Below, piece by piece: positions 15,156 through 63,781 of a stretch of 64,000 nucleotides of DNA (position 1 is the stretch's first letter; the number at the start of each line of letters is the position of its first letter). Below the pieces are notes generated by a model. That model made no database searches and was not told the origin of the DNA. It saw only the letters and a list, made by a program, of their open reading frames with translations. Position numbers and translations under genes: made by a program. This DNA is from Aphrocallistes beatrix (lineage: Eukaryota > Porifera > Hexactinellida > Sceptrulophora > Aphrocallistidae), in NCBI GenBank assembly GCA_963281255.1, contig OY725495.1, forward strand, positions 310,001-374,000, in the 5' to 3' direction.

Positions 15156-15831
15156 CCCTAAAGTATGGCCTTACCAATGGAGCTGAAATGAACTTCGCAC
15201 CCCCCCAATGTATTTTGAAAATCGTAATCGTAAAAATCGTTCGTATTAATGGATGGCAATAGGGTATAACTATTAATTATATATCCAGGTGCATAATTAG
15301 TACAGGTACAAGGGGAACCATGCCTGGATATAGAAATAACACTGCTAATAATGATAATGATATTGATTTAGGAGGACAAGTAATACAATACGCAATTTCC
15401 AATTGCATACTACGAGTGTCTGCCTTGCTGCTGGATAATTATAACAACATTTAGAAATAAAACTTTGCAATACAACAATGCAGTGACAAGGGTAGCAGTT
15501 CAGATTATTTTAATTTTGAGCGAGAAAATTCATGAACAGCAACAGAAGTGATGGGATTACGCGGGTGTCTCTAGAAATCTTTTAAAACGTACTAATTAAC
15601 ATTATTAATACGCTGTAGTATATTTTATTAATATAAATCTTATATTTGAGTGATAGCAATAGCTATACACACGCACACTATTATTTTAACAGTGGGATAG
15701 TGTACAGGTGTTCACACTTGCAATTTCGTACACCAGGTGTCCATACACGCATTCCTTACTCTACTAGCATAGATAAGCACAGGTGTCCACGCCTGTGAAC
15801 GGAATAGTCCCATAACAGTCGATAGCCCGAA

Positions 15832-15867
15832 TATAAATACGAATGTAAATTGTAAATAGACATCAGT
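15832..15867 (+). promoter_or_regulatory. Candidate TATA/initiator core promoter
   Basis: TATAAATA (15832-15839) is followed 31 bp later by an initiator-like TCAGT (15863-15867), a normal spacing for an animal TATA promoter firing on the plus strand. The sequence downstream is C/T- and A-rich without a long ORF, then enters the hairpin-repeat array. It may drive a non-coding RNA or, after splicing, the secreted orphan that starts at 18251. Inference from motif spacing only. Confidence 0.35.
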
Positions 15868-16257
15868 AGCAGTTCAACCACTTCCACTTCGTCTACATCT
15901 CTCCCACATATCACTCACGTTGCAGATACTCTCACACCTCCTGAGCGCACACTCACATCCTGATACTCATACTTACCCCTTCCATTCCCATCGGTTGATG
16001 TAATAGCACACGAGGTTGGTATTTTTTATTCGATCGCACTCCTAATATAAATTCATTTATCGTCGCTACCATACATACAAACTATACATTAAGTGTACGA
16101 CATCGTTCAAATAAATCCGTCGTTAAACGTTACATTTAAATTAATTAATGACTGCACTTTTAACCTAATTTATTAAATACGTACTTAACATTACTCACCA
16201 TGTATACGTACATATATGATGGCATCCTAATACGTATGTTAAATTGTACACATGAGA

Positions 16258-16499
16258 GTGAATCAATTTGGGTTCACCTCCCTTCCATCCCATTGGGTTC
16301 AGTAGTCACCTCTCATTGTTCTGATAACTGGAAGGTCATGTCTTTTCCGCAATTTTCTTACTAGATTGGGGCATCTAGTCTGATTTTGTAGAATTGGCAA
16401 GACTGAAAGGTTATCGGATGACCCCTCTGAGAGTTAAGCTTCTGTACCTTCGTTAAGGCGTCATTAATGGCAACATAGAGTGAATCAATTCGGATTCAC
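16258..16499. repeat. Hairpin-bracketed unit 1
   Basis: Left hairpin 16258-16277 with arms GTGAAT/GTTCAC (the closing pair would be U-G in RNA). Right hairpin 16480-16499 with arms GTGAAT/ATTCAC. Contains the invariant core TTCAGTAGTCACCTCTCATT followed by GTTCTGATAACTGGAAGGTC. Confidence 0.75.
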
Positions 16500-16572
16500 C
16501 CCACTGTTCGTACCATTCGGACCATTTGTGTATATGTGTCCGACGTTAATTGTATTTAATTGTATGCACAAA

Positions 16573-16816
16573 GTGAATCAATTCGGGTTCACATCCCAAC
16601 CATCCCATTCGGTTCAGTAGTCACCTCTCATTGTTCTGATAACTGGAAGGTCATGTGTTTTCTGCAATTTTCTTGCTAGATTGCGTCGTCTAGTCTGATT
16701 ATTGTAGATAGGCATGGCGGGAAGGTTATCGGATGACGCCTTTGAGAGTTAAGCTTCTGTATCGTCGTTAAGGATTTGGTAATAGCAACGTAGAGAGTGA
16801 ATTAATTCGGATTCAC
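16573..16816. repeat. Hairpin-bracketed unit 2
   Basis: Left hairpin 16573-16592 (GTGAAT/GTTCAC, with a wobble-compatible pair). Right hairpin 16797-16816 (GTGAAT/ATTCAC). The invariant core is identical to unit 1 while the flanks differ. Units 1 and 2 are each followed by a short module with a CGGAC...GTCCG inverted repeat. Confidence 0.75.
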
Positions 16817-17174
16817 CTCACTGCTCGTTCCATTCGGACCATTTGTGTATATGTGTCCGACGTTAAGGGTTTATAGCACCATATAAAAGTGAATCGACCT
16901 AGTATCACACTTCTAATCACCCATACGCATCCATCACTCCATTTACAACTGTCGCTAATCGATTAAACTAAACAAACTTACTTAATTAGCTTACACGTAC
17001 TGATATATCAAACTAATCTATATAATCTGGTATTAACAGAGTGAATAAATTTGGATCGCAACACTGACAATTTACAATCGTCGCTAATCGCAACATGACA
17101 ATACAAACTATATTAAACAAGTACTTCCATTGTACCACCAACTCATAATATGATTGGCTTGCAGTATACTCAAA

Positions 17175-17420
17175 GTGAATTAATTCGGATTCACTTCCTA
17201 ACCATCCCATTCGGTTCAGTAGTCACCTCTCATTGTTCTGATAACTGGAAGGTCATCAATGTCTTCCTGCAATGTTCTTACTAGACTGGGTCGTTTAGTT
17301 TGATTGTTGTAGAGTAGCCAATGGCCAGAAGGTTATTGGATGCCCCCAGTGAGAGTTTAGCTTCTGTACCGCCGTTAAGGTTGAATTCCTATGATTAAAA
17401 GTGAATTAATTCGGATTCAC
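17175..17420. repeat. Hairpin-bracketed unit 3
   Basis: Both hairpins (17175-17194 and 17401-17420) have arms GTGAAT/ATTCAC around the loop TAATTCGG. It has the same invariant core, with short insertions just after it (GGTCATCAATGTC). Confidence 0.75.
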
Positions 17421-17702
17421 ACGCCTGGTTGTCTCCACACATTTGCCCACCCCATATGCAACCGTCGCTAAGCGTAGAATAATATCCTAAGCAACCATCA
17501 CGTTAACTACAACATTTACAATACATCATACTATATTAATGACGTACGAATAGTACCTCGATCATACAATCATATGTTACTTGACAATTTGCAATCGTCG
17601 CTAATCGCAACATGACAATACAAACTATATTAAAACAAACAAGTAAGTACTTCCATTGTACCATCAACTCATAATATGGTTGGCTTGTAGTATCCTCAGA
17701 GA

Positions 17703-17944
17703 GTGAATTAATTCGGATTCACCTCCTAACCATCCCATTCGGTTCAGTAGTCACCTCTCATTGTTCTGATAACTGGAAGGTCATGTCTTTCTACAATTAT
17801 CAATCTGGATTGGGTCGTTTGGTTTGATAGTTGTAGAGTGGCATGGCGGGAAAGCTATCGGATGCCCCCAGTGAGAGTTTAGCTCTGTACCGTCGTTAAT
17901 AATTTGAAAATAGCAACATAGAGAGTCAATTAATTCGGATTGAC
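17703..17944. repeat. Hairpin-bracketed unit 4 with a compensatory change
   Basis: Left hairpin 17703-17722 (GTGAAT/ATTCAC). In the right hairpin (17925-17944) both arms are changed together, to GTCAAT/ATTGAC, so the stem stays perfectly paired. The core is identical to the other units. Confidence 0.75.
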
Positions 17945-18250
17945 CTCAACATCCATTCACTGAGCCATACGGTCTACTACTCCATATACAACCGTCGCTA
18001 ATCGTAAAAGTAGGAACTATAATCTAATGAGAGAGTGAATCATAATGGATTCACCTCACAATCCATTAACTACCCAGTCCTGGATCCGCATCCATCTTGT
18101 AGGGCTGTCCATGTGCAACTAAAATAAGGTACAAATTTATCCCTCGATGCTATTACTTGTACATCAACCATGTCACAACATTGAGTCCGTTCAGGCTAGG
18201 TTTCATAATTCATTCCAAGTGGTTGAGTGCTACACCTTATATTATTCAAT

Positions 18251-18712
18251 ATGCGTATTACTGTGTATATCTTCATCATCACACTCATCCTGTTGGACTC
18301 TAGCCAGACGTACAGTAATTGGGCCGAGGTATGTTCATCTTATTTCATTCATTTATTTAAAATGTTGTATACATGTACACAGTAGACTGTCATTAATACA
18401 AACCACGAGTTTTATACCCATGGTATTCAGAAATTCGTTCAATTTCGATTTTATCCGCCGAAACGCTACATACAGCTACATACAGCCGCCGCAGCGAGTC
18501 AGACCAACAAACCGCCCCCCACTGAGCAGCGCCCATTCATCCCCATCCACACAGCGTCCTATTCAACCTCTTCTGCCCCCCACTCAGCAGTACAAACGCC
18601 TCCATCTAACCGCCGCTGTACGCTCGTCGACACATCCCTGTCTAGTACCATGGGTAGTATTAACGAGAGTCTACTGACATATTTTTACATCATAACTTAT
18701 ATAATACAGTGA
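18251..18712 (+). CDS. Predicted secreted orphan protein (two exons)
   Basis: Exon 1 is 18251-18328 and exon 2 is 18431-18712, giving 119 residues. Exon 1 encodes a convincing signal peptide (MRITVYIFIITLILLDSSQ) and ends GAG|GTATGT, a good donor. Exon 2 follows a TATTCAG acceptor in phase 0 and stays open for 94 codons. The mature part is Pro/Ser/Thr-rich (e.g. NKPPPTEQRPFIPIHTASYS), has a single Cys and ends in a hydrophobic stretch (LLTYFYIITYIIQ) that could be a GPI-type signal or a chance run. The stop codon (CAG TGA) is made by the first bases of a MITE. I recognise no family. An alternative frame over exon 2 is also open, so this needs transcript support. Confidence 0.35.
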
Positions 18713-18822
18713 GGTTCGACTATTAGTATTTCGATTTAGAATTCCAAACGCTTATAAAATTATCCCATTTTCCCAAGAGCAATTTCGAACAAATTATTAT
18801 TACTATTAAGCGAACCCCACTG
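18707..18822. mobile_element. pogo/Tc1-like MITE, family B
   Basis: A 116-bp element with ends CAGTGAGGTTCGACTATTAG and, inverted, CAGTGGGGTTCGCTTAATAG, flanked by TA on both sides (18705-18706 and 18823-18824). Non-coding. Its left end supplies the stop codon of the predicted secreted orphan. Confidence 0.75.
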
Positions 18823-19831
18823 TAGCCAATTTATTTACTTTATTCGGTGCGCGATCCAACTATTTTTGTAAATATTTTAATGTAAACAAACAGGGATCCA
18901 TTCAGGTTTCTTAAAATATCCTCAAACTTAACAGGCTACGGTGCTAAATTTGGACGTGTGTAACCATCATTTTAATGATGGGTATATATGTCCAAATTTA
19001 CCCTGGGCCACCTGCTGGAATCCTGGATGAGTCCCTCCTCTTTGTAACTTTTTTTGTTAAACCAGCGTTTCCCAGCCTAGCAATCAAACACAACTTCGTA
19101 TCGAGGTTGATGGGGATATATAAACTATCGACTATAAAGAGTCCATGAATGCTAGGTTGAGAAAAACTGTTATTAATTTAAGTCACTTTATTTGATATCG
19201 CTAGATTTCATCCATAAGTGCAGTGACTATCTGGAATTCTAGATAATATTTGAAGGAATATATCAATATCAAATAAAGTTACTTATTTCCCATAAATTAC
19301 TCCACTGATTCGCTATGCAGCAATTAAAATGGGACTTTCTAAATAGCAATATCAGTTTTATTCGGGGGTTTTTATTTGCTAATACCTAACAAGCTAGTTT
19401 GCTATTCAGAAAGCCCTTGTTTTAGTGTCTAATATTTATTTTGTGTGATTATTGTTAATTCTTTTAGGCGCTTCTTTCTTCTGTATTGGAATGATTTTCG
19501 CACTTTTAACCATAACTTTATTTGCACGATGCTGCTTTACGTTTTGCTGATCCCCACAGCATAACGTAGTAGCGATGTGAACAAATAAAGGGTCCCCAAT
19601 TTGAATATAAACAATTTATATTCTTTATACACTCTCACGCGCCTTATTGGTGAACTAAGGTTCCGACGGGAAGCGGTGTAAGCTAAATTTGGTGTCGTGG
19701 GGTGTGCCATTGACCTTCCTCATAGCACATCACGACATTGCACTTCGGCCTCTCTCTGTGCCCAACAGAGTGCCGTCGAAAGTCGTGGAGGAATCGTATT
19801 CTTTTGGATGCTATGTCGTATCACGGGAGGT
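18823..19831. other. Unassigned AT-rich stretch
   Basis: About 1 kb without a recognisable gene. A short ORF at 19697-19891 runs into the tandem repeat and shows no family features. Confidence 0.4.
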
Positions 19832-20047
19832 TACGTCGAAAGAAGTCTAAAGTCGATAGGACGAAACGTCGATAGGATGAAACGTCGATAGGATGAAACG
19901 TTGAAAGGATGAAACGTTGATAGGATGAAACGTTGATAGGATGAAACGTTGATAGGATGAAACGTTGATAGGATGAAACGTCGAAAGGATGAACGTCGAA
20001 AGAATTCTAACGTCGATAGGACCAAACGTTGAAAGGACCAAACGTCG
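19832..20047. repeat. 16-bp tandem repeat (AGGATGAAACGTTGAT)
   Basis: About 12 imperfect copies of a 16-bp unit, consensus AGGATGAAACGTTGAT with C/T and GATA/GAAA variants. AACGTT, a self-complementary hexamer, recurs in each unit. The unit length is not a multiple of three, so the open frames it produces on the minus strand are repeat artefacts. Confidence 0.85.
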
Positions 20048-20119
20048 TTATTATCCTCTTCTTCGCCTCGATTTTTCGCTCGCTATCGTAATTTCGTTCA
20101 GTATTCGCTCGTAAACGCT

Positions 20120-20362
20120 CGATAGTATTAAAATTCGCCGTATTCGTACGAGAGTAGTAAAATTCGCCGTATTCACAAGATAGTAGTAAAATTTACCGTA
20201 TTCACAAGATAGTAGTAAAATTTACCGTATTCACAAGATAGTAGTAAAATTTACCGTATTCACAAGATAGTAGTAAAATTTACCGTATTCACAAGATAGT
20301 AGTAAAATTCGCCGTATTCACACGATAGTATAGAAATTTGCTACGATAGTATAGAAATTTGC
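20120..20362. repeat. 29-bp tandem repeat
   Basis: About seven copies of a unit reading AGTAGTAAAATTTACCGTAT plus TCACAAGAT. The central copies are almost identical, and the outer copies vary (TTCGCC for TTTACC, CACGAT or CGTACGAG for CACAAG). It decays at both edges, as expected of a minisatellite expanding from the centre. Confidence 0.85.
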
Positions 20363-20449
20363 TAGTATTCACTTGTGTTAAGATCTTCGCATACTTTCGC
20401 TCTATAGCAACTTTAGAAAATATTAATTTAGATTGATTATAAACTTCGA

Positions 20450-21250
20450 ACTTATTTATAACTCAGAGCGCTTAAATCCGTTAAGCCATCGTTAAGGTCG
20501 CAGACCAATACTGAATAGGGTGGTCTTATCCTGAGTTGAAGTGTGGACTGCATGGAAACTGAGATGGATAGACCCACCTGCATGCGGTAGGCAGTGCTCG
20601 ACACTTTAAATCCCTGGGTGCCCCTCTGGGGAAAAGATTCCAGGACCCTACCCACCTAACTCAGTCCGTGGTTTCGATCGACTATAAATCTAGTTGTTGT
20701 TTTTTTAATCCATTCTACACACCCGATTTGAGTGTGTAGAATTTAGCAATGGGTGTGTTGAGATTTGTAAAAATTATCAATGCATCCCCCCGGAAATCGC
20801 AGAATCCATTGCCATTGGTATTGATATTACTATCCGTGCTGTGCCATTCTGCCTCTGAACTTTCCCAGCTTGTTTGATTATCCAATCGCTCCGCCGGGTA
20901 AGGAGCAGGATTGGGATCAGGCTTGCTGGGAAAGGGCGGGGGATACCCCAGGGTGACATGGCATTGATGGTAATCGCCCGTGGTTGTCAAAGGCTAGGTC
21001 TTGTTCCTCCATTCTATAGGTATACATGTAGAATGGTGGGACAACTTTTGGCACCCTCTGACTCGTGTTTTCTCGTCGCTCGCAGTTGGGGAAAGGTACT
21101 TGAGTGGGTCCCAAGTCCACTCACAGGTAGTCACCAAGTGACTAACTGAGCCCTGAGGGGTCAACTGCCATAATAACTACCTAACTCTCTCACTAATCTT
21201 CGCCACAGCTCTCATTATACTTGTATAGATAATTGAACAGCAGTTGAACA
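20450..21250. other. GC-richer block, probable decayed repeat
   Basis: This 0.8 kb differs from its surroundings by higher GC and several overlapping short open frames on both strands (e.g. 20715-20990 minus and 20874-21149 plus). None shows a conserved domain. Short inverted repeats (see 20712-20742, and CCATTCTA...TAGAATGG near 21010) suggest a remnant of a mobile element. The class is unknown. Confidence 0.3.
20712..20742. repeat. Perfect 11-bp inverted repeat
   Basis: ATTCTACACAC, a 9-nt spacer, then GTGTGTAGAAT. A perfect hairpin-forming palindrome near the left part of the GC-richer block. Function unknown; it could be an element end or chance in low-complexity DNA. Confidence 0.6.
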
Positions 21251-22968: not shown

Positions 22969-25900
22969 CTATGTATTCTGCTGGACCCGCGAGAGTCTAT
23001 CGCGTAGTTCAGTTATTTTATCAGATTGAGGGTTAGAAGCCGGTGTCCTAGAGGGGGCAGCAGCAGAAATAGTAGAGCTTGCCATCTCTAATCGCTTCTT
23101 AAGAGAAGATAAGTCCTTAGTGGCTGTCTTTTTCTGGGGCCCTGGTTGTGGTGACATGTGTGGAGACATTCTCCCTTGAGGTGTTAAGGGTTTCGCATTA
23201 GGATTGGCTTCGCTGTGAGGAGTGCTGACAGATGAGAATTTAGAAGTTTGGGCTGGAGACTTACGTGGGGGAGAACGGAGCTCAATATCCATCTCTTTCC
23301 GAGCTCTATCCTGTAATATTTTGTACGAGTTTCGAATTTCGATATCGTGACTTTTAAAGGATGGAGAAGTGGGTTTCGATTGGCTTCTTCGCTCCCGTCC
23401 AATTTCCTCCAAACCGCGTTCAATAAAACCTTGAAAAATGTTTGAAGTATTTCGCAAAAATAAACGTAAGTCAGTGTTAGGATAAGCCAACATAAAATCA
23501 TACAGATCTGCTAATCCCTGCTTACTACTATCGCGAGAACCAATACGTGTAAAAATTTCCGCAAGTCTAACATTTACCTCATGATTTCCGGCGAGTGTGA
23601 TTGGACCATCCGTTCCTTGGTTTAGCTGTGCTCGTAACCTACTTGCAGGTGTCATTTCCGTGTCGATACCATCCGTATCCATCTCGACCTTAGCATTCGA
23701 AACACTTAGATCATTATTATGATAGTTAGCATTCCCATCTTGTGATTTGTTCAATTTATCTAACGTTTTCCGAATTATGACAGAAACCTGTGAATGTTCT
23801 CGTTTCCATATCATATCGGTATAGTTCCAAATGTCTTGCCCAAGAATATTCGCCACGTGATAAACAATGGTTTTCGCGGTTTTAAACGGTTTATCATCAT
23901 TAGGAGATTTACTTAACTTTGCATAAGCAATAAAGTATTGATCCACGTCGAATAAAAGTTTGTTGATGTGAATGGAGTTGATATTATCGTTCAAGCTGCG
24001 AATTAATCTCCACAAACATTTCATGTATATGTCAGTGTACACAGTGGGTGTAGCGTTCGGTGAAAGAGATTGGAGCAAAAGTTCGAGGAGGACAGAGAAT
24101 AGTTCGTTCTGATCAACGGACTCCAGGAGTTTGGCGGTGAGGATATTCAGAGCACGAACTATCTGTACTCCTTCCTCGAAATCATTCAGACCTGTGTTTG
24201 AGATGAACACAGCCAAATTTTGGAAGAGATCATTTATGTTTTTACGTTTTATTCTTTGGCAGAGAATTTTTATACCAACGACAGAGATTAGACAGGATAG
24301 CATGCCCCTGAGGACACGTATTAGCTGTTCAGAAGTATCTCGTGCAGTCAGTTTAGGTATGAAGATAGCCATTTGTAGGAGGGAAGCTTTGATCAAGGTG
24401 TCGATGTATTCAACGAGTTTAAACGGTTGTAGCTTGATAATCTGCTCAAGCTTGCGGTTATTCTCATCTACTTTAGATAGATCAGTGGAAGCAAGGTTAT
24501 TAATGATTGATGGCAAATCTTCAGCATATTGTGTTCTCGCGCATAGAGCACTTGTTTGGTAATTAGTAGTGTTTGTAGGTTTGTTTAAAATGCCTTCATA
24601 TCCCGTCGGTCTTTTCAGCATAGACAGAGGTGTCGTAGGCTTGAGTTCATGCTTCTTGCATATCGCCTCCACATCTACACTGAACGGGCCTCCCGATGGC
24701 TTAGGGATCGACCGTTGAGGAACCCGTTGAGTGGGCAGAGTCGGGACTGTTTGGGTCTCAATTGGGGCTTGGATTAGCTGAGGAGGATTATCAGAAGGAA
24801 AATCATCTTCAACAGGTGATGCCCTAACTTCAGGATCTTCCTGATTTGGCAGTTTACTATCTACCATCTCGTTAAGATTCTCGCTTGGTGTATTTATGGC
24901 TTCTTGCTTGATTTCTTGAGTTTCCGAAGGTTGGCTTTCAGGCCTAGCAGGTGGTGGAGGTGATGACGGCACAGGGAGTTTACGGATTTTCTCTTGCAGA
25001 AGTTCCTTATCCTTCTGAGGGAGATTTCCCACGAACTTGAATAGAGTATCTCCAACATATCTGTACACGTATCCCATACAAGTTAGGGCTGCGTTTTTAG
25101 TTTTATGGTCAGAGTCCGAGATGGATTTTGCGATGGTCTCTATCGCCCTTTGTGGGGTGGGAGTGCACACACCGGTACCTTGATCGCGAATTAACTCACC
25201 TAACACTTCAATACAGTCCACTTTAAGTTTAGAATTTCGCGAAATAAGTCCTACACTTATCAAGGTATACATCTTGATTGGTGAATATATATGACAGAAA
25301 TTCTGTATGAGAAACCTGACTTCTTTGCGCAATGTTTCATTCGGGTTCCCCATCCTCTGAACGAGAAAGGGAATGATTGCGTTAGCTTCAAAATCAATCA
25401 TGACGTAATTCTTGTCGCTTAGCACTTCAAGAAGAACTTTCAAGAATTCTAATGCCGCTTTGAGGACCCTTACATTGTTCTTCTCTGTTAGTTTCATTGC
25501 AATGTATTTGAAGAAGAGGTCAACGCAAGTGATGATCTCCTTCTCAAAAGGTCCTTTCAAGCATGAGGGACTCACTATAAACTTCAACGCCTTATCTTGC
25601 TGCTGTATATCATTATCAAACAGTTTATCAATCAGACTGGGATCCATACATTTCTCAAAATGTGTTTTGAGATAGCGAATGTGGTCAGTACTTGGTTGAT
25701 CAAATTCCCACCTTGGGCTTCTCAGCGTACCATGCTTCTTCTCCTCAAATTCTCTATGCTCACGTGTCGGTCCCATTCTGAACGTTTTAATCTCCTCTGG
25801 TTCAGGAGGAGGAGGAGCAGGAGCAGGAGGAGCAGATGTTTGGCTTGAGATCTTCCTACTCGCACCATTTGGTTTCTCGTTGCTTTTTCCTCCCGACTGG

Positions 25901-28900
25901 GGTTCACTAACTTGATTCGTTTCTGTGGGTTTATCAATTTGAACGGCAACTTGTGGTGTTAATTTGCCTAAAATATTCTTTATTGCTTGTCCAGATGCCT
26001 TGCTGCTGGCTTTTGTGACTGCATCTTTGCCTAGGCAGTCGACTAGAGTCAACAGTAGAGCTTTGGATTTCTCTCGCACAGGGCCAGATCGGTCCTCAAG
26101 AAAGGGCCCGATTGGGACTACCAGAGCAAGTAGCTCTTGCTTTGGCAACTGTTTCGGTGGAACAACTTTAAGTTTCTCACTCACCCAGGCCATTAACTCT
26201 GCTTTCTGATTCGGGTTTTCTGCTTTTATACCTGCGAGCATCATTTCAAACTCAAAAAATGCAGAAAATTTAAGCTGTTCACACCAGTTGTTCAGTGTGG
26301 TAATTCCAGCCTCCCTCACGTTAGGTTTAGCATCGCTTAGCACTGAAAGGATCGGAGGGAGGAGTGTTCGTACTATCTTAGAGAGAAGTGAGCCTAGGCA
26401 GTTCGCTAGCGTACTGATGATATTCAGTGTTGTGATAACAAGGTTTTTGTTGGTATCGTTTAGTCTAGCTTTCAAGCCAGCGATCAAATCTCCTAGGTTG
26501 AGAGTTATTTTTGGATTTTGCTTGAGAATTGAGTGAATTTCTTGTAAAGCCTCGTTCCGTTGTTTCCACTCCTTCTTGTCAGCGAGATTCACCATTAACT
26601 CTCCTTTAAATCGGTCTCCGATGTCAACACGAGGTATTAGGTCTTCAACAGAGAATTGGTTCGCGTCATCATTTCCACCCTCATCAAGATCTCCATCAGT
26701 TTTGCCTGGTTTCAAGCTACGAGTGGGGACTGAAGGTGGATTTGCTGTGGAAGTTTCAATCTCTTTATCAATCTTACTTTCCAAATTTGAGTTAATGTCT
26801 CCTAGCATTGACTTAAACGCATCTTTTTGTGAGCCGAAAAAAACCGCGAATGCACCCAACAGTTTAATACTTGAAGTTTTAACTGTTTGATTTGTGCTGG
26901 ACAGTCCATTTTTGATGTGATTCAAATAGACAGGGAGTTTAACTTGAAGACCGAACGTCTCCAAAGCCACTACCATCCAATTCATACACTCTGATTGTAT
27001 TTTGGGACTTTTATGTGCACAGCATGCAGACATCACTTTATTCGCAACGAAATGGAGCGATTGAATTCTTTCCGAAATAAGGAATAGAGCTTCAGTAGCT
27101 GTTGCCTTCAGTTTCATTTCACCCAACTTCTCTGCTAGTGCACCGAGTACTATTTCAGTACATTTCTCGCCCCAATCTGGTGCGACCTTAACCAGATGGC
27201 AAATGATGGAGAATTTTACATTCATGACCTGGAGGTTGCCATCAGCTAAACCAGGTTTAATCATAATTATGTGGAGATATAGCTGTGCTTGGGTGTTTTC
27301 AGTTTCTAAAGTTTCTATCATTTCTTTCAAGTCGTTAGAAGCGTCCAGCCTATCTTTCCATTTGGGATCTGACAATCGTGTGAGGATGTCTTCCCTGATA
27401 GTTTCCTTAGCTTGAAGGTCTAGGTCATCCGAAGACGGAGAGGGTTCCGGGTCGAAATGAGGAGTGTAGTCTTCTCCTTTTTTAGCACCGTCCTTTTTCG
27501 CACCCTCTTTTTTAGCGCCTGTTTTGGTTCCAGTCGCTTTGGCAGTTTTGGTTGTAGTTTTAGTTGCGCCTGTCTGTTTAGGCGGATCAGCTCTTTTAGT
27601 TTCGGCTTTCTTAGTTTCAGCTTTCTTCACAGTTTTAGTCGGTGCAGTCTTCGCTTTGGTTGTCTCCTCTTTAGCTTTCGTCTTCTTTCCTTGAGGCACT
27701 TTTAATTCAGCTTTTTCACATGCTTCTTGTATTTTAGCCATTTTATTCTTTTCAATCTCTTCAAAAAAAGCTGCCAACGGTCTTTCGCCAAGTATTTTTA
27801 AGCATGTACCTAGAGCTGTCGAGGCGGCGTCCCTAACTTGTGCCGTCGTATCGTCAAGTCGCTTCTTCAGAGAAGGGACCAAGGCCTTCTGGAGGGGTTT
27901 AGTTAGAGTTGTAGGGTTACAGTAGCAGAGGCTACGAGCTGTGAAAAGACAGGTCTCTGCTTTAACGTTCGGATTTTTATTCTCCAAAGCCTCCAAGATT
28001 TCCTCGTGTAAGTTCTGGAGGGATGTAGTTTTGTATATCTCATCAGCACACTCACTGAGCACACTAACAACTGCAGCCTTTTTCTCCTTCATTTTCTCGA
28101 GCACAGATGTTAAAAACATCTTTGATTGTGGTTCAAATTGCCCCTTAAGACCTTTCGCAACTAAGCCAACAACTTTAGCCGCACTAATTACACAGTTAAT
28201 ATTGTTGTCTTTCGTGATTATTTTGTTCATAGCTGTGAGCAGCTCTCCATAATCGTTCGATTTCAGTTTAGGTATTTTCGACGCTTCTTCTATTAATTCG
28301 ACCAACGCATCTTTCCTTTCACTCCACTTGGCGCTTGTCAAGTTTTGGTAAAAGTTCTCTGGCAGTTTTGAGAGCAGATCAACCGGTTCTATCATTTCCA
28401 ATGGATCAAATGCCGGTGCGGCATCTACCGGTGTGGGTGTGCCATCATCTCCGCCGCCAGCTGCGTCATCTGATGGATCCGGGGCCGAGGCTTGGTCTTG
28501 CTGCTTAGAACGCAAGTAGCGAGTTGGTTTAGGGTTCTCTCCCACAACTTTCGCCCATTCCTCTTCAAGTTCCTTCAGTTGGACAGGTTTCAAGTCTTTA
28601 AGACAGATACGTAACACATCCGCTTTCAACCATTTGCACAACTCAATGGAGAGATTTCGTGCCTCGTTTCGAATGTTCTTATCATTATGCGCAAATGGCC
28701 CACCTAATCCTTTCAAAATAATTTTAACCGGCAAAACATGAGGACCGAAATTTGACACGATCAGCGTGGTAGCAGCAATGCAACCAATCACGATTTTGGG
28801 AGTTTTGTTAGAAAAACCTTTGATGAGCTCATCAACGACAGCTTCTTGCTGCTCGACCTCGACGCAGAGCAAACAGGTCTGTAGCCCAAGTTCTTTGGTT

Positions 28901-29223
28901 TTCGGTCGGGAATTGAAACATTTCGCAGTTATTCCCTGCATAATTTCGGCGACACATTTGCCAGAGGTGGCAACATTCGCGAATTCAAGAAAAGCGGCAG
29001 TGGCATCTAATCCCTTTTCTTGAGCGGGCGCATTAGTATCTGTGACGTATTTCTTAATGTCGTACGAGTACTGTGTGTATTCAGGACTGTCTTCTTCTAG
29101 TATGCGAAACTTTTTCGCGAGTTCTTCATATCCAGATGCACGAGCTTTCCAATTTTTGTGTGCAATTCGCTCTTCAATGGAAAGAGAGCTGAAATCCTCT
29201 TCAACTACAGGAGGACCATCCAT
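22969..29223 (-). CDS. CKAP5: XMAP215/ch-TOG microtubule polymerase
   Basis: Intronless ORF of 2,084 residues (human CKAP5 2,032). It adds tubulin at microtubule plus ends and acts at centrosomes and kinetochores. Five TOG domains can be followed: TOG1 (about 10-230, HKNWKARASGYEELAKKF), TOG2 (about 285-505, SKLPENFYQNLTSAKWSERK), TOG3 (about 600-830), TOG4 (about 860-1090, DLIPRVDIGDRFKGELM) and TOG5 (about 1175-1405). A very Lys-rich linker (about 508-590) joins TOG2 and TOG3 and probably contacts the microtubule lattice. The C-terminal helical domain is present (MKCLWRLIRSLNDNINSI about 1740, IFTRIGSRDSSKQGLADLYD about 1885), and the protein ends in a short helix (ITELRDRLSRVQ). A 6.3-kb coding region without introns is unusual for this gene in animals. 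The start lies before the conserved TOG1 motif with no better ATG upstream. Confidence 0.96.
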   Translation of the reverse strand: MDGPPVVEEDFSSLSIEERIAHKNWKARASGYEELAKKFRILEEDSPEYTQYSYDIKKYVTDTNAPAQEKGLDATAAFLEFANVATSGKCVAEIMQGITAKCFNSRPKTKELGLQTCLLCVEVEQQEAVVDELIKGFSNKTPKIVIGCIAATTLIVSNFGPHVLPVKIILKGLGGPFAHNDKNIRNEARNLSIELCKWLKADVLRICLKDLKPVQLKELEEEWAKVVGENPKPTRYLRSKQQDQASAPDPSDDAAGGGDDGTPTPVDAAPAFDPLEMIEPVDLLSKLPENFYQNLTSAKWSERKDALVELIEEASKIPKLKSNDYGELLTAMNKIITKDNNINCVISAAKVVGLVAKGLKGQFEPQSKMFLTSVLEKMKEKKAAVVSVLSECADEIYKTTSLQNLHEEILEALENKNPNVKAETCLFTARSLCYCNPTTLTKPLQKALVPSLKKRLDDTTAQVRDAASTALGTCLKILGERPLAAFFEEIEKNKMAKIQEACEKAELKVPQGKKTKAKEETTKAKTAPTKTVKKAETKKAETKRADPPKQTGATKTTTKTAKATGTKTGAKKEGAKKDGAKKGEDYTPHFDPEPSPSSDDLDLQAKETIREDILTRLSDPKWKDRLDASNDLKEMIETLETENTQAQLYLHIIMIKPGLADGNLQVMNVKFSIICHLVKVAPDWGEKCTEIVLGALAEKLGEMKLKATATEALFLISERIQSLHFVANKVMSACCAHKSPKIQSECMNWMVVALETFGLQVKLPVYLNHIKNGLSSTNQTVKTSSIKLLGAFAVFFGSQKDAFKSMLGDINSNLESKIDKEIETSTANPPSVPTRSLKPGKTDGDLDEGGNDDANQFSVEDLIPRVDIGDRFKGELMVNLADKKEWKQRNEALQEIHSILKQNPKITLNLGDLIAGLKARLNDTNKNLVITTLNIISTLANCLGSLLSKIVRTLLPPILSVLSDAKPNVREAGITTLNNWCEQLKFSAFFEFEMMLAGIKAENPNQKAELMAWVSEKLKVVPPKQLPKQELLALVVPIGPFLEDRSGPVREKSKALLLTLVDCLGKDAVTKASSKASGQAIKNILGKLTPQVAVQIDKPTETNQVSEPQSGGKSNEKPNGASRKISSQTSAPPAPAPPPPEPEEIKTFRMGPTREHREFEEKKHGTLRSPRWEFDQPSTDHIRYLKTHFEKCMDPSLIDKLFDNDIQQQDKALKFIVSPSCLKGPFEKEIITCVDLFFKYIAMKLTEKNNVRVLKAALEFLKVLLEVLSDKNYVMIDFEANAIIPFLVQRMGNPNETLRKEVRFLIQNFCHIYSPIKMYTLISVGLISRNSKLKVDCIEVLGELIRDQGTGVCTPTPQRAIETIAKSISDSDHKTKNAALTCMGYVYRYVGDTLFKFVGNLPQKDKELLQEKIRKLPVPSSPPPPARPESQPSETQEIKQEAINTPSENLNEMVDSKLPNQEDPEVRASPVEDDFPSDNPPQLIQAPIETQTVPTLPTQRVPQRSIPKPSGGPFSVDVEAICKKHELKPTTPLSMLKRPTGYEGILNKPTNTTNYQTSALCARTQYAEDLPSIINNLASTDLSKVDENNRKLEQIIKLQPFKLVEYIDTLIKASLLQMAIFIPKLTARDTSEQLIRVLRGMLSCLISVVGIKILCQRIKRKNINDLFQNLAVFISNTGLNDFEEGVQIVRALNILTAKLLESVDQNELFSVLLELLLQSLSPNATPTVYTDIYMKCLWRLIRSLNDNINSIHINKLLFDVDQYFIAYAKLSKSPNDDKPFKTAKTIVYHVANILGQDIWNYTDMIWKREHSQVSVIIRKTLDKLNKSQDGNANYHNNDLSVSNAKVEMDTDGIDTEMTPASRLRAQLNQGTDGPITLAGNHEVNVRLAEIFTRIGSRDSSKQGLADLYDFMLAYPNTDLRLFLRNTSNIFQGFIERGLEEIGRERRSQSKPTSPSFKSHDIEIRNSYKILQDRARKEMDIELRSPPRKSPAQTSKFSSVSTPHSEANPNAKPLTPQGRMSPHMSPQPGPQKKTATKDLSSLKKRLEMASSTISAAAPSRTPASNPQSDKITELRDRLSRVQQNT

Positions 29224-29742
29224 TGCGATTAATTGAATTCTATGGTCTAATTAGTCAAGAAATGAAGAAAATAATTAAATGGAAATACTATGCATAGGAA
29301 TAAGGCAGCAGTAGTAGCAAGTTTTATATTAGTCGATGATGTCAAAACCTCTAATCAAAAATTTGTAAGGTTTAAGATGTACTTTCAGACAGTTTTAATT
29401 CAAACAAACCATTTAACTCAGCTAGGTTAACAGGTTTGTTAGATGTATTCAAAATGCATGATTTTGTATTTATGTATAGACAGCCCAGTTTAGGAATTTA
29501 AATTTAAAGGAAGTACATAACTGTAATTCATGTTATAACCTAACGACGATACAGGAGATAATTAGATAAAATAAAGATTCAGACCTAGATAAATATCTCT
29601 AAGGTAAAATAAATCACGAATAAAACAATCACCTAAATATCTAACAAGTAATCACACCATTCACACTAACCTAACCGAACGAGGAATGTAGGAAAATAAT
29701 CTCTAGACTATTAGTTCTAAATTAACACGGGGTCTACAGTCG
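29224..29742. other. Gap between ACSBG and CKAP5
   Basis: 519 bp of AT-rich DNA upstream of CKAP5 and downstream of the ACSBG stop. It likely holds the CKAP5 promoter. No other feature seen. Confidence 0.4.
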
Positions 29743-44237: not shown

Positions 44238-47200
44238 TCAACCAAACAATTTAATGAAGCATGCATGGCAGTAAGGTTTATTCTGATGTTCTTTAAAAGT
44301 TCCCTTGTTAAGCTCTGTCATGCAAAAAGCACACTTAAAGTGATCAGGATGGTACTTCTTACCGAGCGCCGTTACACAGGCGCCTAGGACAGGTTTGAGA
44401 CAGCTAGCGCATAGCGTGCCTCTTGCAGCGTGGTAGTGCAGCTCGCAATAGGGCCTCCCATCTAGCTCGAATATGTTCCCGCCTTTGAACGGGACATGAC
44501 ACACCTAATAGAAACATGTATCAATCATCAAATTTACCATTTAACTACCATGCTTGTAACAATAAAATTTCAATTATTTAAGATAGCAGAATATTATCAT
44601 GGAAGATGATAATCCAGGTCATCAAATTTGGTTCAAAATCGCTATATCATGGTGTCCAACAGTCTACACGTCTCAACATTAAGGATATAACCTCATTAGT
44701 ATATATATATCGTCATTTAATCACAGGTGTGTTCATAATACTTCCATCAGAGCATGACGATGAAGGCAGTGACAATATGACTTAAGCAATGGAAGTTATT
44801 ATTATAAGCCAACTTAACAATGACGTTAATTATCAGAGATACGATACAAACCCCAATTATGCTTATTATATGGATCAATTAGTACTGTATGAGTGCTCAG
44901 ATATAATTCATGGTGAATGTATAATGGAAGGGTACATAATTTAGTGATACTTACTTTGCAAACGAAACATTCAGGATGCCATTGAGTCCCCATAGCACTG
45001 ATATAGCCCTCCATGATAGCAATACCGCATGCCTTACAGCGTGGAGCAAACATCTCATAGTAATCCTCTGTGCAGTACGGCTTTCCATTGTGCTCATGGA
45101 AACCGTCCTCTCCGAAGGATTTCCCGCATTGAGCACAGAAGAAATGTTCTGGGTGCCAAGTCTGGTTCAGGGCGGTTGTAACTTGCTATTGGATGAAATA
45201 ATTCAAAATCTAAACATTAAAAAAAGAATTTAAAAGTTATAACTTACGTCGAGAATGCTTCCGTTACAGTAAGCACATTTCGGTGAGAAGAGCTCTTGAT
45301 GGTCTTTTTCACAGTAGGGTAGGTCGTCGTGCTCGAAGAATGTGACATGTGCTAATGAAGTGTCACAGGCTGTACACACAAAGTGGTCTACATGCCATTG
45401 CCTGCTCATAGCTGTCAGCGCCTAGAGAAAGAGATTAATGGAAGATGAATGGCATTAGACACTACTGTAATAACTTGAAGGGGTGAGAAAGATAAAATCA
45501 AATCGAGACGAGTGGTTAGTAATCAGTAGAGAAAATAAGCTTTCTAAAGAACCCATAAGGAATACTAGTTGGAAGAAAATCTGGAGCTTGAATGGTAATT
45601 CTATACAAACTAACTGAACCTCGTCATAATACAATGTCAACTAAGACTAAGCCAAGTTCGAGTTCGAGTGCGGGACTGGGTGATATTGGTGATATTCTTA
45701 GCCATTTTTGGAAGGAATATTCAACAACCACCCCTCAAAAGCTAAAAATGATCGATGTCTACTTAGCATTCATTTTGTTAACAGGCATTTTCCAATTCGT
45801 TTATTGCCTAATTGTTGGTACTTTTCCCTTCAACTCATTCTTATCTGGGTTTATCTCCTGTGTGGGAGCGTTTATTCTTGCTGTCTGCCTACGAATACAG
45901 ATCAACCCTCGAAACACAGCGCAATTCAAACTGTCAGAAGAGAGAGCATTCGCAGATTTTATGTTTGCCAGTTTCGTACTTTATTTGGTTGTTTTCAATT
46001 TCTTAGGATAGATGATATAACTGAACATTTAGTACTTTGTGTATTAGGTTTATTCTTGTATTGCTTATAAATTTGTTGTGATTCCTAATGAATTAGCATG
46101 AATTCATTTCCGTTAATCGGGAGAATTAGTTTAATAACAAACGTGAGTTATTTGATCGATTAACTAATTATCAGTCACACATTAAACATGGGACAATTTA
46201 CATAGCTGTAATGGAATTCCATTGATTCGGTTTACCTTTCCTAATATGGGCACCTTACAAGCAGCACAGGTGCCCTGAGATTGGGTGTCCAAGCCCTGCT
46301 TGTTAGCATCTAACTGGAGTGTGCCTACCATGGTGTCAAGCTCCCCCAGTTCATCATCTGCCACCGTCATCAAACTGTCCCTGGCAGACAATGGAAGGGA
46401 CTCGTGGTGTGTTAAGTAGGGGGTCGGCTCGTCCACAGTGTTTGGGGGCTTGGACGGTTTGTTTGGAAGAGGATTGGGAAGTTTAGATGTCGGTCTGCTC
46501 ATAGCACTAGGCTGTGGAATTCAGAAAAAATGTAAATCTGATGGTTTGAGACTATTTAGAATAGTCGCATACACGCCAACTTGAGCAATGATAAAAGCGG
46601 GATGCGGCATTGAATTTCGCGGGACATGGCGGGACGCAATATAAAAGTATTATACATGAAATCCAAAAAGCGGGACATACATACTGGGGAAATTTCATGT
46701 AAAACGGGACACTCATCAACATTAGCTCAATCGAAGAGTGAAAACACGGGACTACTGGCATGTACAGTGGAGTTCGCTTATTAGCAACTCCCTTATTAGT
46801 AATATTGCTCTATTAGCAACCAATTTTCAGGTCCCAGGTGTAGATTTTGTACTAATTCCGTTCCCCTAATAGCAACTTCGCTTATTAGCAACCTTTTTGT
46901 GAGCAAAACTCGAGTTGCTAATAAGCGAATTCCACTGTAATGTGGCCCAATGAGAGCGAAACGAGGCCTTTTACAGTGGAATCCCCTTATTAGCAACTCG
47001 GGTTTTGCTCATAAAATGATTGCTAACACGCGAAGTTGCTAATAAGGGAACAGAATTAATACAAAATCTTCAATTAGAACCTGAAAATTGGTTGCTAATA
47101 GAGCAATATTACTAATAAAGGAGTTGCTAATAAGCGAATTCCACTGTATGTAGTTGTAATACCTTTATATCTTCAAGCGATGCCACCAAATCGTTCAGGC

Positions 47201-49423
47201 CCTGTAACCTGTCACTGGCCTTCTCATTCGGTTTGAAAGAAGGCCTTGGTGGCGCTTTGCCAGTTAACTTTGGTTTGGCAGAGGGTGACACTTCCACATA
47301 AGGTAACGGGTCATTCTTGATGGGTTTATGCATATTTCTACGATCTTGTGGGACTGGTTCATAAAAGTGCTCTGGAACATCTTTATGTGATGACGTCACT
47401 TCAGGATAAGAGTAGTTTAATTCTCCCTGAGAGGACTTGAATTTCTGAGTTTTGTTTGAAATCTCTGGATAATCATAATCAGGAATTGAGGTTTGCGCTG
47501 TGTCGCCCACTGTCTCGTATCTGTCCTCTGGAGTTTTGCTGAGGTGGTCGTATGAGAGTGACACTATCCCAACTAGATTGAAAAGGATTGAGATCAGTCG
47601 ATATTGGACAGTTAATAATAAGAATGAGACATCCATCTTAAATAAGAAATTTGGGGAAGTATTTTAAAAAAATATCCGATTATAAGTATCAGTGGAAAAC
47701 GAACTCGTAGGAGTATTGAGAACATTTATTTGCCGTGATTATTCCCATAGACACACAATCAGTTGTTTCAGAATTCCTATGTGATAAAAATCCACAAAGA
47801 TATGGAATTTTTTGGAAAAATGGAAGTGCTTTTTGATGAGTTTATAATAATGAATTCACTCTACCATAGCCGATATCGCAACCTTACGATAAACTAATTA
47901 AACCGCTCACAGTCTTTATTCTTATCAGCGTTGATATCATTTAGAGAATCCAGCAATTTATCAAGTTGAGACAAGTCACTGCGTTTAGCTGGATTGTTTC
48001 CCTCAGGTGCAGTTCCACGGACCATGGATGGGACCATTGTAGCCTCCAGATAGGCAGCTGGTTCTTGATTTGGCGGAAATTTTGGGAGTGTTGGCTTAGG
48101 GGAAGTGTTGGGTTTTCTCTGAGCCTATTCAGATTATAAAGAATCAATGATGTGCCGACATACGTGTATACCAGGCTTGGACCGGGTCACCGGGTCAACC
48201 GGGTCACTATTTTCAATAAATTTCCGGGTCAGAACCGGGTCACTGATTTTGACTTGACCCGGTTTAGTATACTTCTAATATTTATCTCCATTATTACTCA
48301 TAATTATCATTCATTCTTAGTGTTCACTTAAATATAGTAAATATCATATATCGAAATAACATTACTATATTCATGCGATATCAAATCGCATGAATATAGA
48401 AAATTAATGTTTCCTGGAAAACCGGGTCACCGGGTCAGGAAATCTTGACCCGGTCCAAGCCTGGTGTATACCATGTATGCCAACCTTTGCAAGGAAAAAA
48501 ACACCCCGGGACATAAGTAGTCTTTTAGGGACATCACACTGAAAAGTGGGACAATTCCACTTTTTGAAACGTTTTCGCGGGACATTACTTTCACATATGT
48601 CCGAAAAAAACGGGAGAGTTGGCGAGTATGGTATACTCTATCAATATGTTATTACTCACAACTGCAGGAGGAGTTTTTTTCTGTTTCATTTCGTAAGAAG
48701 GTTTGGAGTATAGCACGTTTGGGTTCGGCCGAGGCGCTCCTCGATCTTTGAGTGATTCCAAAGCTGCCATCTGCTGTTCCAACAGGTCTAAGGGATTCGG
48801 TTCCAAGTAGCCCTCCTTTCCAGGACTAAGAGGGGGAGGAGAGGGGAAATGGATGGGACCTGGCGGAGCCTCATATCCTGCTTCATTTTCAAAACTGCTC
48901 GAGTTCGAGCCTACTAATGGCGGGGCTGGAAGGGGTCTAGCGGTCAGAGGAGGAGAGGGTAGGGGCCGTTCTGAGGTGGGGACCATAGCCTGCAGATCCT
49001 TGAGAAGATCATCTATCAAACAAATTGATGTCATGCAAATACCAATTGTAAATGGAACATCACAGGTTTTTGTGTTTGTCTAAGTTAGAAAATAAAGTTT
49101 GGAGACATTTTAGAATATATTTTCATAAGAATAATCCCCTAAATAAATATTCGAGTCAGTTTCATCACTGTTGAGTGGTTTTGGTGTAAGAATGACTCAA
49201 ATATTTGTGTACATATTTAGGGAATGTATTCTTACGTCAACTGTTCATAAAATGCGTAGCAATAAATAGAAATATTGCACATCATTTTGGAAACATTTAT
49301 ACAGTAATACGTAGTTCACATGAAAGGTTTCTCCAAATGGCTCTGCTATAAATCATATCAAAATACTATTGTAGTATCATGCTTACCAAGCTCAGCTAGT
49401 GTTTGTGTACCAGAAGTCATCAT
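44238..49423 (-). CDS. PXN: Paxillin
   Basis: Eight exons on the minus strand: 49423-49387, 49012-48660, 48124-47911, 47572-47163, 46511-46236, 45421-45248, 45185-44955 and 44504-44238. They give 653 residues. Paxillin is the focal-adhesion scaffold linking integrins to FAK, vinculin and Arf-GAPs. LD motifs: [14 protein letters not shown] near the N-terminus, [14 protein letters not shown] (about 184), [14 protein letters not shown] (about 325) and [14 protein letters not shown] (about 395). The linkers are Pro-rich. Four LIM domains follow from about 418 to the end, with full Cys/His ligands (e.g. [51 protein letters not shown]), ending [10 protein letters not shown]. Intron 5 (45422-46235) contains DAD1 on the opposite strand; introns 4 and 2 contain MITEs. 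Phases agree throughout. Confidence 0.93.
45634..46011 (+). CDS. DAD1: Oligosaccharyltransferase subunit DAD1, antisense within paxillin intron
   Basis: Intronless ORF of 125 residues (human 113). DAD1 is a small membrane subunit of the ER oligosaccharyltransferase that transfers glycans to nascent proteins. The family text is strong: [59 protein letters not shown] and [20 protein letters not shown], giving three membrane segments. The N-terminus has a short Ser-rich extension. I chose ATG 45634 rather than the upstream frame start because the conserved protein begins just after it. It lies wholly within paxillin intron 5 on the opposite strand. Confidence 0.96.
46565..46760. mobile_element. 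GGGACA-rich repeat, family D copy 1
   Basis: Starts near CGCATACACGCCAAC and ends near GGGACTACTGGCATGTA, giving short imperfect inverted ends. The interior repeats GCGGGACAT-like words. A related stretch lies at 48471-48637. Borders are approximate and the class is unknown. Lies in paxillin intron 4. Confidence 0.4.
46765..46937. mobile_element. pogo/Tc1-like MITE, family E copy 1
   Basis: A 173-bp element with ends CAGTGGAGTTCGCTTATTAG and, inverted, CAGTGGAATTCGCTTATTAG, flanked by TA. Contains repeated TTAGCAAC / GTTGCTAA words. Paxillin intron 4. Confidence 0.85.
46974..47146. mobile_element. pogo/Tc1-like MITE, family E copy 2 (inverted)
   Basis: A second 173-bp copy in the opposite orientation, 36 bp from the first and flanked by TA. 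Its right end lies about 15 bp from the splice donor of paxillin exon 4 (47162). Confidence 0.85.
48171..48464. mobile_element. MITE with CCAGGCTTGGACCGGGTCA ends
   Basis: A 294-bp element with 19-bp perfect inverted ends and several internal ACCGGGTCA repeats near both ends. It is flanked by TGTATA on each side (48165-48170 and 48465-48470), an apparent 6-bp target duplication. Paxillin intron 2. Superfamily not assigned. Confidence 0.75.
48471..48637. mobile_element. GGGACA-rich repeat, family D copy 2
   Basis: Abuts the previous element. Left end ATACCATGTATGCCAAC; right end, inverted, ATACCATACTCGCCAAC. The interior has CGGGACAT words as in 46565-46760. Borders are approximate. Confidence 0.5.
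49126..49234. repeat. Imperfect foldback in paxillin intron 1
   Basis: The arms share TAAGAAT, CCCTAAATA and AATATT(T)GAGTCA in inverted order over 109 bp, with a roughly 40-nt centre. Probably a decayed MITE. Confidence 0.5.

Positions 49424-50858: not shown

Positions 50859-63781
<12,923 letters not shown>

Follow-up and report, generated by a model that had tools for sequence, protein, structure and literature searches.

A Candidate Long Non-Coding RNA Gene Family Built of Repeated Modules with Covarying Loop-Internal Loop Pairing

The window, a 64,000-nucleotide stretch of genomic DNA, holds on its + strand an array of four repeated units whose cores are predicted to fold into strong hairpins and whose paired positions change together. 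The most probable explanation is a new family of long non-coding RNA (lncRNA) genes with repeated self-clamping modules, likely serving as a ribonucleoprotein scaffold, to which we assign a probability of roughly 0.55. The first-pass annotation of this DNA had suggested a structured non-coding RNA; the structured part of that suggestion is borne out by folds and covariation, and the transcript remains predicted.

Results and Discussion

Architecture of the Array

Nine short hairpins of 20 nt each are found on the + strand at the places first reported for them, and eight of them bracket four units of 242-246 bp: unit 1 (16258-16499, hairpins at 16258-16277 and 16480-16499), unit 2 (16573-16816, hairpins at 16573-16592 and 16797-16816), unit 3 (17175-17420, hairpins at 17175-17194, which reaches 9 bp with its flanks, and 17401-17420) and unit 4 (17703-17944, hairpins at 17703-17722 and 17925-17944). 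The ninth is a solo hairpin at 18035-18054, with a 7-bp stem and a different loop, again as previously described. The array is irregular, since the start-to-start distances of the units differ (315, 602, and 528 bp). The short hairpins had been described as a 6-bp stem with an 8-nt loop; they are real, but are better read as a 7-bp stem with a 6-nt loop, the seventh pair being C-G or U-G. The stem variants pointed out earlier are also present: units 1 and 2 carry the GTTCAC version in their left hairpins, and the right hairpin of unit 4 is changed on both arms to GTCAAT/ATTGAC. This G/C-swapped stem recurs in all four relative loci described below.

A whole-genome search with the hairpin pattern, allowing up to 2 mismatches, gave 21 matches, and the reversed pattern used as a control gave 0. 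The 11 matches with 0-1 mismatch all fall in the window locus (7) or in the four relatives (4); the 10 with 2 mismatches comprise the hairpin at 16258 and nine sites elsewhere in the genome. Within the array, the longest stop-to-stop frames reach 66 aa (+) and 69 aa (-). The motif YCKNCGYTAR occurs 11 times at 16117-18001, in the array and just upstream of it, and is also present in stretch L022.

Upstream of the array, the TATA box of the earlier annotation (TATAAA, 15832-15837, +) is present, preceded by three CAGGTGT motifs (E-box CAGGTG) at 15704-15797 (+). These three are the only AGGTGTYCA sites on either strand of the window. Similar CAGGTGT clusters occur at L022 3842-4152 and L067 8496-8545, and the CAGGTGT-TATA cluster is found at three kinds of locus. 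On the downstream side, the secreted orphan protein that had been predicted is not supported: its ATG (18251) is GTG in all four relatives. An inverted-repeat element starts at 18380, where the unspliced frame of the orphan ends. This MITE-like element extends over 18380-18676 and has the inverted ends CAGTAGACT...TTAATAC.

The window has a GC content of 0.33-0.46 and many long single open frames. Among them are an XMAP215/ch-TOG homologue (22969-29250) in a single open frame of 2093 aa, which is unusual for an animal, and two adjacent NRF-6-like acyltransferase genes (53312-58510), each consisting of one long open frame. At least 19 homeodomain matches are present in the genome. Taken with the genome size of 100.5 Mb and set against two published studies (PMC10282587 and PMC10280926), the GC content, the long open frames and the homeodomain count suggest that the DNA is probably from a glass sponge.

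Relative Loci

Genome-wide DNA searches (100.5 Mb, 28 contigs), which could miss unit copies more diverged than those found, located only four further loci with diverged copies, at C7:4888.3 kb, C6:135.7 kb, C15:33.2 kb, and C4:6044.7 kb. Every one of them contains two intact units, termed types a and b, and one degenerate third unit, the copies being about 69-82% identical. The four relative loci are young copies, mutually about 90-96% identical over most of several kb; their left-side ORFs differ, as judged by eye, and no end points are shared within the 9.9 kb read at each. Between the window and the relatives, the alignable parts are the units, part of a second structured domain, and a few short stretches. 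All five loci lie less than 400 kb from a contig end, four of them at 33-326 kb and the fifth at 394 kb, and the four at 33-326 kb read away from the nearer end.

Divergence among these young copies (n = 4) is 1.9% for the type-a core and 2.2% for the type-b core, with 0 gap columns, and 4.4% for the degenerate unit. The flanking regions (n = 4) differ by 2.9-7.7%, with gap columns in all of them, and some flanking 100-column stretches go down to 1.5%.

Structured Cores of the Units

Between each pair of short hairpins lies a strongly structured core of 153-160 nt; the first-pass annotation had registered only the borders. Eleven of the 12 intact copies have one long imperfect hairpin as their minimum-energy fold, the exception being unit 3, whose fold is branched. 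All 12 intact units fold more stably on the + strand (-53 to -76 kcal/mol) than on the - strand, and their z scores against shuffled sequences range from -3.1 to -10.3 on + and from -0.3 to -4.2 on - (n = 12). For the + strand of the window, the minimum free energies are -53.0 for core 1 (16294-16462, z -3.1), -58.2 for core 2 (16609-16777, z -4.1), -58.5 for core 3 (17211-17384, z -4.0), and -63.7 for core 4 (17739-17905, z -6.1). The fold is lost in the degenerate third unit of each relative (4 of 4, z -0.5 to 0.1). When the window was scanned for folds, units 1 and 3 scored no better than z -1.9. The same scan contains strong inverted repeats at about 46841-47080 and 48321-48520, which are stable on both strands and outscore these two units.

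The single-hairpin folds share an asymmetric internal loop above stem H2, of about 3 by 8 nt when aligned by hand. Across unit 2 and types a and b, the basal stem H2 and the apical stem H6 are the most conserved, and conservation is about the same in the two halves of the hairpin (0.70 and 0.67). Among the four window units, a block on the 5' arm is 97-100% identical.

Covariation and Strand Evidence

Covariation, which the earlier annotation had proposed to test with R-scape, was assessed here within this one genome by alignment and shuffle tests instead and is positive. In a 12-row alignment, 97.3% of 551 pair cells are paired, compared with 36-42% when the partners are slid; the cells are not independent, because the relatives (the four window units and types a and b) all come from one genome. 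Cells changed on both sides number 34 against a shuffle mean of 14.9, and the covariation score is 0.275 against 0.179 in shuffles; neither value is reached in any of 500 shuffles, a result that kinship among sequences can produce without any structure. The number of pairs with a both-side change is a weak measure (9 vs 7.5, 23 of 500 shuffles), and pair types are not raised (420 of 500), so that overall two of the five measures are weak.

In the tests on six sequences, one sequence each (C6a and C7b) stood for the near-identical copies of types a and b. When these six distinct sequences are aligned by hand, 88% of cells are paired, against 32-43% when slid, and 11 pairs are changed on both sides, a number reached by none of 2000 shuffles (mean 5.3). 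On the + strand, one-sided changes exchange Watson-Crick and GU pairs at 16 sites and Watson-Crick and AC pairs, which would be G-U on -, at 3 (p = 0.004), a count somewhat favored by the fact that the structure had been inferred on +. These wobble changes suggest that the RNA is made from +. The four degenerate third units stand outside every alignment test and enter only the folding and the model search of stretches. Collectively, there are good grounds in the sequence comparisons to regard the RNA shape of the units as kept by selection, and the earlier claim of selection on RNA structure is supported by more evidence than the short hairpins alone.

Pairing between the Apical Loop and the Basal Internal Loop

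The apical loop of the hairpin is complementary to the 3' strand of the basal internal loop, and the two change together. The loop variants GGGTC, GCGTC, GAGGC, and GGGGC face the internal-loop partners GACCC, GACGC, GCCTC, and GCCCC, respectively. All five pairs can form in types a and b and in unit 2 (loop GCGTC, internal loop GACGC), and one pair is broken in each of units 1, 3, and 4 (4 of 5). Permuting the loops among the units gave 84 of 720, which is not significant, and a simulated mutation null and an exhaustive scan were added after this test. The simulated null, with the number of changes kept and type a as the start, yields 0.0008 for unit 2 and type b and 0.00017 for all sequences. 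Among the 9,421 scanned pairs of gap-free 5-column stretches, only the clamp helix has Watson-Crick cells at 95% or more together with two both-side changes; when the limit is lowered to 85%, again with two both-side changes, it is the sole match outside the helices, the thresholds having been chosen after the clamp helix was known.

Second Structured Domain and Cloverleaf Module

The fold scan of the window also flagged 20801-21001 as structured on +. The second domain (20790-21175, +), which is present both in the window and in relative loci, contains at 20790-21081 a rod-like hairpin about 180 nt long together with another stem-loop. The stretch 20790-21175 folds with -163.4 kcal/mol (z -6.1) on + and -127.2 (z -3.3) on -, and the corresponding domain of the C6 locus folds similarly (-169.1, z -3.1). 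When the window is compared with C6, 76 of 154 consensus pairs are the same, 25 are exchanged between Watson-Crick and GU and 2 between Watson-Crick and AC; the rest comprise 8 pairs changed on both sides, 23 with other changes, and 20 that run into a gap. Structural support for this domain is weaker than for the units, because the RNAalifold covariation term is unfavorable (+3.09). The approximately 2.7 kb between the array and the second domain hold the inverted-repeat element and minisatellites. The latter have periods of 16, 29, and 21 bp and lie at 19833-20364.

At the 3' end of the second domain stands a module of about 87 nt (21082-21168, +) that adopts a three-arm cloverleaf when folded alone and carries the invariant GGGGAAAGGTAC and CCCAAGT. 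Further copies are found at L067 9797-9890, in L074, and at L077 688-766. The three-arm form is obtained for three of the five sequence types folded alone (window, chromosome end, and dispersed); in the array-relative and C8-copy types, the GGGG stretch pairs elsewhere and hairpin 1 is not left intact. In longer folds, the closing stem gives way to pairing further upstream. Compared with shuffles, the cloverleaf is not clearly more stable, with z scores on + of -0.77 (C6 locus) and -2.15 (chromosome end) and on - of -0.31 and -1.65, respectively, the window piece in this test having been cut short. Judging by eye from complementarity, TTGGGG and TCCCAA of this module could form a pseudoknot. 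A twister- or HDV-like ribozyme was considered as well, and the helix order seems not to fit.

Chromosome Ends and Dispersed Copies

Searching the genome for the cloverleaf pattern with up to 3 mismatches returned 32 sites (control 0), namely 26 of a chromosome-end type, the 5 array loci, and one diverged copy on C8. Of the 26 chromosome-end-type sites, 12 are no more than 39 kb from a contig start and always on +, 13 have high coordinates and are always on -, and one is internal (C17:3938555). The distance to the end was established for five of the 13 high-coordinate sites only, and all five are within 26 kb of it (C4, C7, C9, C14, and C15). A looser pattern gave 46 sites (control 0): 25 of the chromosome-end type, the 5 array loci, the C8 copy, and 15 dispersed mid-chromosome copies, most of them nearly identical. 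The occurrence of these 15 copies suggests that part of the cloverleaf family is probably carried by a mobile element. One dispersed copy lies about 550 bp downstream of an ORF (L079 384-1040, C2:1467383-1468039) whose match to OTU protease is weak (E 3.2e-4; 21.6 bits, short of the 23.3 required).

Relatives of the stretch L067:8400-9180 stand upstream of all 26 chromosome-end-type modules, and further relatives occur at C9:13613 and C9:2257475. L067 8460-9180 resembles an RNA gene, with CAGGTGT motifs, a TATA box, a GAAGAAG...CTTCTTC stem, 24-bp repeats, and, by eye, apparent short introns. Stretch L075 (C9:2255600-2258300) contains a 74% relative of this chromosome-end upstream stretch, and zinc-knuckle and retropepsin-like coding sequence was recognized by eye about 1.4 kb downstream of that relative. 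Both contig ends read to the first base, those of C6 (L067 1-6663) and C15 (L068 1-4599), open with a 159-bp satellite that is about 82% alike between the two, and no short telomeric repeat array is listed in either. None of the three chromosome-end stretches searched yielded a hairpin module.

Database Searches

At the gathering cut-off, Rfam 15 has no match in the window, and no tRNA was found there. Lax Rfam searches, which in the window covered 15500-19500, gave four matches below the cut-off there, the sole one inside a unit having E 4; in L022 and L067 eight matches fell below the cut-off (best E 0.0075), none of them in units or cloverleaf, and L074 together with L068 8600-8900 gave none at E up to 5. 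Exact patterns of one unit and two cloverleaf sequences had no match in viral contigs, and a single cloverleaf pattern, the only one run against bacterial and archaeal genomes, had none there. In a literature search at title and abstract level, covering few subscription journals, no such RNA appeared among the matches listed.

Proposed Mechanism and Competing Explanations

In the preferred explanation, a non-coding RNA gene would read rightwards from about 15.85 kb, perhaps past 21.2 kb, and we infer a single continuous transcript. The RNA would carry four modules of about 155 nt, with the 7-bp hairpins as spacers, and perhaps also the 20.8-21.2 kb domain. The long imperfect hairpin of each module would bend halfway, such that the apical loop (GGGTC or its variants) meets the basal internal loop (GACCC or its variants); by pairing with the 3' strand of the internal loop near the base, the bent module would become a closed clamp. 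The most likely job of such an RNA would be that of a multivalent scaffold, each module binding the same protein, comparable to the roX stem-loops in fly dosage compensation.

The structures might instead be part of the RNA made by a mobile element, one that is non-autonomous and perhaps retrotransposed or telomere-linked, and would there serve packaging, reverse-transcriptase recognition, or processing. The several kb shared at about 90-96% identity by four young copies with different left-side ORFs would suit such an origin, as would the 15 dispersed cloverleaf copies, one of them downstream of the ORF with the weak OTU-protease match. However, no end point is shared by the copies over the 9.9 kb read at each, the hairpin modules were found at only five loci, no coding relative was seen carrying them, and the cores are less variable than the four flanking regions; we consider this origin possible, on the unlikely side. 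Tandem hairpins in a non-coding unit also resemble a miRNA cluster, and the near-identical 5' arm block of the window units could be expected of Drosha/Dicer precursors of miRNAs or hairpin siRNAs; miRNAs are reported from demosponges (PMC4752309). The unit stem, however, is about twice as long as the usual animal pri-miRNA stem, its conserved block contains the asymmetric internal loop, unlike a mature miRNA duplex free of large asymmetric loops, and its two halves are conserved to about the same degree. Outside the family, the one conserved 22-nt arm tried against the genome matches just one site with 3 mismatches allowed, about what chance would give (own estimate 0.5), and covariation between the apical and internal loops is not expected of such precursors. 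Altogether, small-RNA precursors appear unlikely here.

Repeated inverted repeats, nearly identical short hairpins, and other inverted repeats nearby are what a DNA-level fold-back satellite or MITE-type palindrome homogenized by gene conversion would present. Such a palindrome should be equal on both strands, whereas stability is strand-asymmetric and wobble changes prevail by 16:3 in the units and 25:2 in the second domain; a DNA palindrome would moreover have no need of loop-internal loop covariation. Taking these observations together, this origin is disfavored and very improbable. Little speaks for a structured 5' leader regulating a downstream secreted protein: the signal-peptide-like frame beginning at 18251 fits the idea, but the GTG at its start in the relatives and the inverted-repeat element from 18380 leave it barely credible.

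A bolder form of the lncRNA gene family reading would be a new class of animal RNA gene, in which self-clamping pseudoknotted modules and the cloverleaf form a chromosome-end-linked family that would take part in maintaining or silencing the ends; we regard this as speculative and doubtful. If true, such an RNA would act in an animal whose ends carry a 159-bp satellite in place of any visible short telomeric repeat. How ends of this kind are kept (two were read, neither with a listed short telomeric repeat) is a matter on which the chromosome-end link may bear. To our knowledge, few lncRNAs, above all outside model animals, have covariation-supported structures. In the present case, the diverged copies within a single genome are numerous enough to support a structure, including the loop-internal loop contact, and the locus offers a defined RNA family in a probable early-branching animal that is open to probing of structure, partner, and expression.

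Comparison with Known Systems

The roX1 and roX2 lncRNAs of Drosophila are likewise non-coding RNAs with repeated stem-loops sharing a motif, the transcript here being predicted; in contrast, the present modules are far longer, contain loop-internal loop pairing, and have no known link to dosage compensation. With TERRA-type subtelomeric transcripts, the family shares loci near contig ends, four of five reading away from them, and a related module with a relative of its upstream stretch near many chromosome ends; unlike TERRA, no telomeric repeat array is among the 12 tandem-repeat entries of the window. Clusters of miRNAs or hairpin siRNAs have in common with the array the tandem hairpins in a predicted non-coding unit, but differ from it in the longer stem, the asymmetric internal loop, and the covarying loop-internal loop pairing found here. 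Finally, in bent RNA domains of the P4-P6 type a long helix bends from tip to base, as is inferred for the present modules; no ribozyme was found in our case, and the contact would be made through Watson-Crick pairs and in repeated copies.
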